The notes beneath the pieces were generated by a model. That model was not told the origin of the DNA and did not search any database. It worked only from the letters and a program-made list of their open reading frames with translations. 49,717 bases of DNA from an uncultured Bacteriovoracaceae bacterium (GTDB lineage: Bacteria > Bdellovibrionota > Bacteriovoracia > Bacteriovoracales > Bacteriovoracaceae). Positions 3,474-6,317 of this stretch are shown here, one piece after another. Location of the stretch: assembly GCA_950054155.1 (NCBI GenBank), contig CATLOT010000029.1, positions 1-49,717 of the forward strand. The letters are read 5' to 3'. A program made the position numbers and the translations under genes. The first letter of the stretch is position 1, and each line of letters opens with the position of its first letter.

Positions 3474-4274
3474 GTGAAAAATATTGTCATTCTAGGTGTC
3501 TCACAATCAGGTATTTTCGAGTTAGCTTCATTAGTTCAAGAGAATGCTAACCCTCAGGAAGGCTATAAGATGCTTGGTGGGTTCTTTAATGTATTTGGTG
3601 ATCGCTACGAAATCCACTGCGAAGATTCTGATGCTAAGAAAACGCTTTCTTCTCATCAAGAGGGCGCTTTTAAGAAGTCATTTGGACTAAATTCAGAATT
3701 AGAAATTGAAGAATTTCGTGACTATGGACTCAAGGGAATGACAGCTGACTCGAGTAAAGAAGAGTTTGCACAACGCCTTGCTATCCTTAAAGAAGCGAAG
3801 GGAAGTCATATTATTACTTTGACGACCTGGGAGTTGGGCCAAATTAAGAAAGTGGCTCCAGAGTTGCTTGAAGAAATTGAAAGCTTTCTCGAGTCGAGCC
3901 ATACAGTGGCCATTGACCTCAATGATATTAAAACTGCAGCGGCTTCTTATGTCCTGGCGACTGAGACAGGACATTGGGTACGTCCTAAGGCAGAGGCACC
4001 ACTTTCCTTAAATGAAAAATTCACGGCTAAGAGTGACGTTCTTAATCAGTTCTCAAATGAAGTTAAATTACTGAAGTCATTTATTAAAAAGATTCCAGCA
4101 TCAAGAGTTGTGACAAGTCTTGAGGTTGAAAAAGGTTCTCAAGCGACGAGAAAAGTCATTGGTACCAATGCGCAACGAGATGCCGTTTTTGCAAAGCCAA
4201 GATATGAAAGAAGTGCTCAAAGTTACATTTCTAATCCATCAGACCTTGAGAGGATTTCATCTTCTTTAGCCTAG
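3474..4274 (+). CDS. uncharacterised protein, GTG start
   Basis: 266 residues from the GTG at 3474, chosen because GGAG (3464-3467) sits 6 bases before it; the in-frame TTG at 3462 would overlap that site. The N-terminus KNIVILGVSQSG is a beta strand plus glycine-containing turn, like the start of a nucleotide- or sulfate-donor-binding fold, but there is no Lys to make a standard P-loop. The remainder is mixed alpha/beta with a basic C-terminal tail. No signal peptide or membrane segment, so it is probably cytoplasmic. I do not recognise it. It lies between the Tat-exported beta-helix gene and a methyltransferase-like gene in the same reading direction, and an intrinsic terminator begins about 50 bases past its stop. 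Confidence 0.75.
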   Translation: MKNIVILGVSQSGIFELASLVQENANPQEGYKMLGGFFNVFGDRYEIHCEDSDAKKTLSSHQEGAFKKSFGLNSELEIEEFRDYGLKGMTADSSKEEFAQRLAILKEAKGSHIITLTTWELGQIKKVAPELLEEIESFLESSHTVAIDLNDIKTAAASYVLATETGHWVRPKAEAPLSLNEKFTAKSDVLNQFSNEVKLLKSFIKKIPASRVVTSLEVEKGSQATRKVIGTNAQRDAVFAKPRYERSAQSYISNPSDLERISSSLA

Positions 4275-4283
4275 GACTGAACA

Positions 4284-4880
4284 CTGGCTTATTGTAAGAA
4301 AATCGCAGATATTGAAAAAAAAATAGCCCTCGAACTTATTGAGGGCTTTTCTCTTTATGGGGATCATTCATTTCAAGATAGTCCCTTTATTCAAGAATGT
4401 TTAAAAAGAAATAACGATCTCAAAAGACTAACGCCGGTAGAGACTTTTGCTGTCGTTGGGGCCGGTAGTATCCCGAGTACCCTCTTAAAAGCGGGAGAGC
4501 TTGGCTTATTTAAAGAATATGTAGCCTTTGACGTCGACCCTGAAGCTAAGGAGCTGGGCTCACAGGTCCTTGAGAAATGGGGTTACAAGGGCCAATACCA
4601 CTTGGGGGATGGATGCTCCCTCTCCTATGGTGACTATGAAACGATCTATATAGCCAATCTCGTCCAAGGGAAAGAGTCAGTATTAAAGCGTGTCCATGAG
4701 ACATGTCGAGATGATGCTCAAGTGGTCATCCGACTGACAAATAGTGGTGGGGATAATGATGTTGACTGCTATTCTTTGGATGCCATTAACGAGCGTGACT
4801 GGAAAATTTTAGAGAGGGGAGAGCCCTCACAAGAGTTTAAAAGCTTTAACGTTTTTCTTAGAAAAAATACCCAAGATTAA
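4284..4880 (+). CDS. nicotianamine-synthase-like SAM-dependent protein, probable CTG start
   Basis: The frame is open from 4281 to TAA at 4878 and reads as a convincing protein: AVVGAGSIPSTLL (SAM-binding glycine motif), VAFDVDPEA (acidic end of strand 2) and HLGDG. The glycine motif with IP and the DVDPEA segment recall nicotianamine synthase and related methyltransferase-fold enzymes. There is no ATG, GTG or TTG in frame before 4602, which lies past those motifs. CTG at 4284 has AGGA (4273-4276) seven bases ahead and is the best start (198 residues). An alternative is slippage on the A9 run at 4315-4323 from the TTG at 4312. A terminator hairpin lies within the early codons. The gene may be functional and gated, 5'-damaged, or affected by a sequencing error. 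Its 3' end overlaps the convergent outer-membrane gene by 23 bases. Confidence 0.6.
   Translation: MAYCKKIADIEKKIALELIEGFSLYGDHSFQDSPFIQECLKRNNDLKRLTPVETFAVVGAGSIPSTLLKAGELGLFKEYVAFDVDPEAKELGSQVLEKWGYKGQYHLGDGCSLSYGDYETIYIANLVQGKESVLKRVHETCRDDAQVVIRLTNSGGDNDVDCYSLDAINERDWKILERGEPSQEFKSFNVFLRKNTQD
4315..4356 (+). terminator. intrinsic terminator inside the start of the methyltransferase-like ORF
   Basis: A run of nine A, then a perfect 7-base-pair stem AGCCCTC (4325-4331) / GAGGGCT (4341-4347) with a 9-base loop, then TTTT and a T-rich tail. This has the full layout of a Rho-independent terminator, 50 bases after the stop of the preceding gene. It also lies within the open frame of the next gene, so it could end transcription of the upstream unit or act as an attenuator. 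Confidence 0.75.
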
Positions 4881-6246
4881 AATAAAGGGTGTCATTGGTT
4901 CGATAGGCACTCCAATAAGATGAAGTTTCTGGAGATTTGAGAAGCTCTAGACCAACAGTCGTAGTCACCTGCTTCCAAGGAAAGAAAATGACCTGGGCGT
5001 TGAGGAGATTGTCTTTTCTCTTGAAATCATAACGAAGGAGATAAGTGAGATGGGCCCAGTCATTTAGGATATGAGAGCCACCAATACCTGCAGCACTTTT
5101 CCATTTAACAGTTTCGCTATAAAAGTCGTCACTTCCCTTTTCGTGATCAGATAAGTAGTGAAGGAAATTAAAAGCATAGGTAGAGAGTTCTGTTCTTAAA
5201 GTCGTACTGTAGTGAACATACGTTTCTCTATTGTATTTTGGCTCAACCTTAAAAAAGTCAGTCGTTAGGGTGCGGTTATTTTCAATTGAAATAGAAATGG
5301 AGTCAAAGTCTTCTCCGAGTCGGGCATTGGGGTCTATGGTGACTACACCAAGAATTGTCTCTGTGTTTTTATAGCGCTGCCTGATTTCACCACCAGTCAT
5401 AATATGATGGTTTACTACAGGATTGGCGTTGACTCTCACCTGGTCGATCCCACTATCATAAAATGCTTCAGCATTAATTCTTAATCTTCTCTCTGGTTTA
5501 TAGATCGAAAAGGCACTGATTTGACCTTTATAGAATTTACTTCCCCAGTCATAAGTCATTCTAAGACCTAAAGACTTTTGAATGATGATATCTCGATACT
5601 CAGGGAGGTTAAGGTCATAGAAAATATCGACTTCTTGATTGGCAATAATCGTTCTCTCAGGAGGTCTCTTGTACCAGTCCGTATTGCTGACAACTTTTCC
5701 CCCTTCGACTTTCACCGAAGGATTGAGAGCGGGAATATAGAAGTAGCTTAAGAAAACCTCAGTTTTAAGGTGACCATCACGAGTCGAGTAATGAAAACCG
5801 GTGAGGCCTTCACTCTTAGTATCCATAAGGCGAAAGCCTCTCGTATTTTGAAAGTGATCAAGCTGCCAAAAGTTTTCATTGGGGTGCCAATTAAGTTTCT
5901 TTCTGCCTAAGGTGTATCGGGATTGGTTCTCTCCTACATATCTAATATAGGCTTCCCCAAGAGAGGGGCTGAATTCCTTGTTATTGAGATAAAAGCGTAG
6001 GTCACCGTTAAAGCCAGCCTGAATAGAGGACTTCTTGAGGTTATAGGAGTGACTAATATCAAGCCAGTCAGAGTTCTTAGTTTTGTTCTGAGGGTCATTG
6101 AGACGCAGGAACTTCTCGTAGCCAATCTTAGTTACAGAAGAGTCTTCCTCCGCATAAGTGTTTGAAACTAAATAGACGACTGAGCTCAGAAGAAGAGAGG
6201 TTAAGGCAAATCTGTGCAAAGTTTGGGCATGCTGTAAAAGTGCCAT
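4858..6246 (-). CDS. predicted outer-membrane beta-barrel protein
   Basis: 462 residues from the ATG at 6246; an ATG at 6265-6267 would add seven residues but coincides with the AAGGAG that probably serves as ribosome site. The N-terminus has a hydrophobic signal (ALTSLLLSSVVYLVSNTYA) with a likely cut after TYA. The mature protein is rich in alternating hydrophobic/polar strands with Tyr and Trp, and ends in FNLGYFF, an aromatic C-terminus typical of proteins inserted by the Bam complex. The segment YTLGRKKLNWHPNENFWQLDHFQN near the N-terminus resembles porin-like inward loops. No transport substrate can be assigned. It is a single leftward gene, convergent with the methyltransferase-like gene and divergent from the large lipoprotein. 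Confidence 0.82.
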   Translation of the reverse strand: MALLQHAQTLHRFALTSLLLSSVVYLVSNTYAEEDSSVTKIGYEKFLRLNDPQNKTKNSDWLDISHSYNLKKSSIQAGFNGDLRFYLNNKEFSPSLGEAYIRYVGENQSRYTLGRKKLNWHPNENFWQLDHFQNTRGFRLMDTKSEGLTGFHYSTRDGHLKTEVFLSYFYIPALNPSVKVEGGKVVSNTDWYKRPPERTIIANQEVDIFYDLNLPEYRDIIIQKSLGLRMTYDWGSKFYKGQISAFSIYKPERRLRINAEAFYDSGIDQVRVNANPVVNHHIMTGGEIRQRYKNTETILGVVTIDPNARLGEDFDSISISIENNRTLTTDFFKVEPKYNRETYVHYSTTLRTELSTYAFNFLHYLSDHEKGSDDFYSETVKWKSAAGIGGSHILNDWAHLTYLLRYDFKRKDNLLNAQVIFFPWKQVTTTVGLELLKSPETSSYWSAYRTNDTLYFNLGYFF

Positions 6247-6317
6247 GATACGGGGATTCTCCTTCATTGGCCTCTCTAAATCATCTAGAATTAAGTATAA
6301 AGGAAATTTGTAAGTCT

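Follow-up and report, generated by a model that had tools for sequence, protein, structure and literature searches.

The window analysed here is the whole stretch of 49,717 nucleotides, contig CATLOT010000029.1 of an uncultured Bacteriovoracaceae bacterium (assembly GCA_950054155.1). Two genes follow one another on its forward strand between positions 3474 and 4880, and the second has no standard start codon near its 5′ end. The features of the locus are listed below, where G005 and G003 are two genomes of the same genus as the window genome.

3474-4274, plus strand: upstream gene of 266 aa, with a GTG start, a TAG stop at 4272-4274 and a sulfotransferase-like predicted fold
4273-4276, plus strand: AGGA, Shine-Dalgarno-like, 7 nt 5′ of the CTG and overlapping the upstream stop
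4284-4286, plus strand: CTG, the proposed start codon; the aligned codon is CTG in G005 and ATG in G003
4284-4880, plus strand: gene of 198 aa for a probable nicotianamine-synthase/CntL-core-like enzyme, with its stop codon at 4878-4880
4314-4316, plus strand: codon of E11, which aligns with the catalytic Glu (MtNAS E81, CntL E84)
4315-4323, plus strand: A9 run in the codons for Glu-Lys-Lys; relatives do not share it
4325-4347, plus strand: terminator-like hairpin of 9 pairs, kept in G005 and absent in G003
4348-4356, plus strand: T-rich tail (TTTCTCTTT) 3′ of the stem

The locus was described earlier in a sequence-only reading, the details of which are correct on re-check. The frame 4281-4880 is open and holds no ATG, GTG or TTG before 4602, and the stops TAG 4272-4274 and TGA 4278-4280 stand in frame on its 5′ side. 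Likewise present are the CTG with AGGA at a spacing of 7 nt, the A9 run, and the stem of seven Watson-Crick pairs followed by the T-rich tail; the stem grows to nine pairs via a G-U pair and one further pair, around a loop of 5 nt. The first standard in-frame start is TTG 4602, at residue 107. A second TTG, at 4312, is out of frame and reaches a TAG after three AAA codons. The 3′ ends of the CTG gene and of the outer-membrane-type gene at 4858-6267, which converges on it, share 23 nt (4858-4880), so that the two are not separated by a terminator.

Among the 129 genomes of the family that were searched, three homologs with nearly full coverage are found, all in Bacteriovoracaceae/Bacteriovoracales MAGs: G005 (JASBRV010000134.1, 49% identity to the window protein), G003 (JAFMBV010000003.1, 41%) and G033 (DIUE01000072.1, 28%). 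A scan of the genome contigs yielded no orthologs besides these three, and a second copy of the CTG gene was not found in the window genome. In G033 the neighbours differ and the start is an ATG eight codons further upstream. The two relatives in the genus are more informative. The junction sequence of G005 is GCG TAG CTT CTG AAT TAT TCT, with no in-frame ATG, GTG or TTG near the start, whereas that of G003 is TAT ATG TCC CAT AGC. Comparison of the 5′ region in relatives, which the sequence-only reading had proposed, therefore puts CTG in the second species and ATG in the third at the aligned codon. The three codons share one column of the protein alignment, which is free of gaps over its first 25 residues, and the start is thus best placed at CTG 4284. 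The same reading had named an ATG start in a relative as evidence against its account; this occurs once, in G003, exactly at the position of the CTG, and so speaks for the start site. Both the frame and the position of the start are conserved. From this comparison we infer that translation of an intact gene starts at CTG 4284, the best explanation of the locus, with a probability of roughly three in four. The CTG itself is known from two copies in one genus.

A decayed gene, or an indel in the data that took away the start, had also been suggested. The missing standard start and the long A run would fit such an account, but the same CTG is present in G005, a separate assembly, which argues against an error in the data. 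The frame is intact, shares 49% identity with G005 and has a confident predicted fold, and its conservation extends to the aligned catalytic residue, all of which speaks against decay. Nor does any standard start with a Shine-Dalgarno match lie within 60 nt, whether in frame or frame-shifted. Decay or an indel is accordingly very unlikely.

The sequence-only reading described the product as methyltransferase-like with SAM-binding motifs. The motifs hold up; the enzyme itself is unlikely to be an ordinary methyltransferase, as its nearest solved relatives are aminobutanoyl transferases, namely CntL and nicotianamine synthase. A profile built from the four proteins matches CntL (7.7e-11) and MtNAS (2e-9) in the PDB far above all other chains. 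The AlphaFold model (pLDDT 86) likewise has CntL (Z 19.0) and MtNAS (Z 18.6) as its best structural matches, while other SAM-dependent enzymes reach Z 16 at most. Pfam gave nothing above threshold and no clear family for the window protein; for PF03059 (NAS), scores stayed below the gathering score, and only one of the four members matches, with E 0.028. The protein is probably a short enzyme with the nicotianamine-synthase/CntL core, and its predicted reaction, transfer of the aminobutanoyl part of SAM, follows by analogy with these relatives.

The likeness to CntL, of staphylopine biosynthesis, and to the archaeal MtNAS lies in the SAM-binding core fold and the aligned catalytic Glu. E11 of the window protein falls on that residue (MtNAS E81, CntL E84) and is invariant among the aligned homologs; in AtNAS1 the corresponding E77 is essential (PMC10248798). 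CntL and MtNAS have about 270 aa, however, against 198 aa here. In the structural alignment residue 1 of the model corresponds to MtNAS 71 and CntL 74, which means that the N-terminal domain, the first 70 residues or so, is absent. The catalytic Tyr of MtNAS is not seen in the alignment with the window protein, and, unlike in CntL systems, neither an opine dehydrogenase nor a racemase was recognised as a partner next to the CTG gene. These comparisons also bear on the start codon, since E11 lies far upstream of TTG 4602. Judged from the model, a start at TTG 4602 would remove E11 and most of the SAM-binding site, and the E11 stretch is part of the protein only if translation starts early, as at CTG 4284.

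The upstream gene (3474-4274) is found only in three members of the genus, the window genome, G005 and G003, and in both relatives it is followed by the ortholog of the CTG gene. No Pfam family was found for its protein. The predicted fold is sulfotransferase-like (Stf0, Z 11.4), with P-loop kinases scoring nearly as high and moderate model confidence. From its stop to the proposed start there are 9 nt in the window, 3 nt in G005 and roughly 30 nt in G003. Reinitiation becomes much less efficient as such a gap widens, and by about 20-40 nt hardly any is left (PMC10666635). That both CTG copies follow closely behind the upstream stop suggests termination-reinitiation, by which ribosomes that end the upstream gene at TAG 4272 may initiate at CTG 4284. 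Alternatively, 30S subunits may be brought in by the AGGA beside the TAG and then initiate at the CTG. The AGGA stands 7 nt before the CTG, and in G005 an AAGG stands 8 nt before its CTG; no Shine-Dalgarno-like match precedes the ATG of G003. About half of the long ATG genes in a sample of the same genome have a match of at least 4 nt, mostly at 5-8 nt. A 4-nt match, however, also precedes 85 of the 530 CTGs in the window, which makes this evidence weak when taken alone. With the initiator tRNA at the CTG, the protein would begin Met-Ala-Tyr-Cys, and because CTG is a poor start, its output is probably low relative to that of the upstream gene.

The upstream gene shares the frame of the CTG gene, and TTG 4312 directly precedes the A9 run, so that the protein could in principle be made by stop readthrough or by slippage on the A9 run from that TTG. 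Readthrough would have to pass two stops in the window and one in G005, and the ortholog in G003 is in a different frame from its upstream gene. Slippage fares no better: TTG 4312 has no Shine-Dalgarno match, and neither G005 nor G003 has an A9 run or needs a shift. Since the frame differs in G003 and the run is missing in both relatives, readthrough and slippage do not provide a shared mechanism; they would be unneeded in the relatives, and this is the least probable of the accounts considered.

Coding signal upstream of standard starts was scanned by a hexamer coding score in 762 non-shadowed coding ORFs, from 850 kb of the window genome (G000) taken as stretches. The CTG gene ranks first of the 762 for coding signal 5′ of the first ATG, GTG or TTG, with 102 codons. 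As a positive control, the same scan recovered infC. This gene, which encodes IF3 (G000:C10 22029-22619, plus strand; L054, from about 1981), has an apparent ATT start behind GGAGG; the ATT of infC is a classical, autoregulated case of initiation at a codon other than AUG. A higher frequency of non-standard starts in the genus than in the control genome G008 was considered and dropped, as the counts of candidates gave it no support: 7 of 762 ORFs in G000, infC included and not all of them plausible, versus 2 of 344 in G008.

The scan also flagged a gene whose product is a membrane protein with weak matches to TPR (G000:C5 2862-1132, minus strand; L021 1132-2862; homologs L038, L039, L040, L126 and L042). 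In five of six genomes of the genus it has no ATG, GTG or TTG at its conserved N-terminus, and its apparent start is ATA (G000, G005, G001), ATT (G003) or ATC (G002); the sixth, G006, has ATG. In G005, G001, G003 and G002 the apparent start lies a few nucleotides behind a Shine-Dalgarno-like match, and most of the five follow good matches, as with AAGGGAGGTAAGAA-ATA in G001. The homologs inspected from other genera start with ATG, GTG or TTG. A CarD-like gene, in G000 (G000:C5 5668-6219, plus strand) and in G006 (G006:C17 15694-16284, minus strand), has coding signal well 5′ of its first standard start, and a KDCPI stretch is common to the two copies. In G008, of another genus of the family, coding signal extends over 78 codons 5′ of the first standard start of a SIS-domain, GmhA-like gene (L069 12342-12929, minus strand).

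Starts of the ATT, ATC or ATA type thus occur in the genus, in infC (ATT) and in the TPR membrane gene (ATA, ATT or ATC), and two such codons, ATC 4302 and ATT 4311, lie in frame in the CTG gene. Either could be the start in place of the CTG, but neither is preceded by a Shine-Dalgarno match, and the invariant residue I7 lies 5′ of ATT 4311. At these two positions the three species have ATC/ATT/ATA and ATT/ATA/ATC, as expected for plain isoleucine, and G003 has its ATG further up, at the position of the CTG. We therefore consider a start at ATC 4302 or ATT 4311 unlikely.

The hairpin that follows the proposed CTG start has a predicted stability of -13.9 kcal/mol (z -4.1). It is present in both CTG orthologs: in G005 a 9-bp stem with two one-sided changes occupies the corresponding position, and the segment has a z of -3.6. 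In G003, the ATG ortholog, the hairpin is absent. Of the 11,486 coding 55-nt units in the sampled genome, 6 hold a hairpin this terminator-like with a T-rich tail, as do 6 of 626 gene starts, whereas 44 of 626 stops are followed by one. Terminator scores, computed with the d'Aubenton-Carafa formula, are borderline (+3.0 for the window, -2.9 for G005), and termination at the hairpin is plausible. A role as a bidirectional terminator that also serves the convergent gene 4858-6267 was rejected. The minus strand has a T9 run but scores -8.9, and that of G005 is far worse (-61.7), which means that such a terminator is not conserved.

The sequence-only reading had proposed a CTG start gated by attenuation. 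The start is well supported by the comparison above; the gating is a possibility, to which the tests for selection on the hairpin lend weak support. When the sequence is recoded synonymously, only 99 of 5000 trials for the window and 27 of 5000 for G005 attain the observed stability. A conditional test for G005 gives 194 of 5000. Synonymous codons are kept at 6 of 8 sites in the stem versus 47 of 94 gene-wide, which is not significant (p 0.13).

On the attenuator account, the CTG start and the in-gene terminator form a translation-gated attenuator, which evolved so that expression of the operon's last gene stays low or conditional. RNA without a closely trailing ribosome would fold at 4325-4347 and, less certainly, may halt transcription, as a brake gated by translation. 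The hairpin would be blocked only by a ribosome that had begun at the CTG and advanced some codons, since a ribosome with the usual footprint would not reach 4325 from the start codon. The co-occurrence of hairpin and T-rich tail with the CTG, their absence from the ATG ortholog, their rarity in coding DNA relative to the regions after stops, and the few recodings that attain the stability in either species all favour this account. Against it stand the synonymous sites of the stem, which are not unusually conserved, the conditional test and the borderline scores. Furthermore, three species are compared and the pair with the hairpin are the closer two, so that descent may explain the co-occurrence. 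The attenuator is therefore a tentative reading and somewhat improbable as it stands. If true, the last gene of the operon would be made only from transcripts with prompt reinitiation, and a poor, coupled CTG would gate the passage of polymerase.

Initiation at CTG 4284 fits a kind of event that is already known, the non-canonical start codon, of which this gene would be a new case. Very few annotated bacterial genes have a CTG start, in part because gene finders commonly ignore this codon, and annotation will therefore probably truncate or omit genes of this type. CUG accounts for 0.024% of bacterial starts, and its output in E. coli is about 0.86% of that of AUG (PMC11497404). The present CTG is cleanly checkable because a relative has ATG at the same codon. 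The recurrence of non-standard starts in the genus, CTG here and ATA, ATT or ATC in the TPR membrane gene, makes it convenient for studying the upkeep and regulation of weak starts.

Non-canonical starts have been described for infC (AUU) in E. coli and for infC and ccpN (AUA) and cvfC1 (AUU) in S. aureus (PMC13009471). The likeness to infC, ccpN and cvfC1 is that of a conserved weak start, expected to lower output, with no AUG, GUG or UUG available. Those genes, however, have ATA or ATT with an extended Shine-Dalgarno sequence, whereas here a CTG stands behind a short match, is probably coupled to the upstream gene, and is a predicted start. The hairpin, in turn, resembles cases of premature termination inside ORFs, which share a GC-rich stem and a U-rich tail within the coding sequence (PMC7815308). 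Here the putative terminator lies in the first codons of the gene and coincides with a CTG start.
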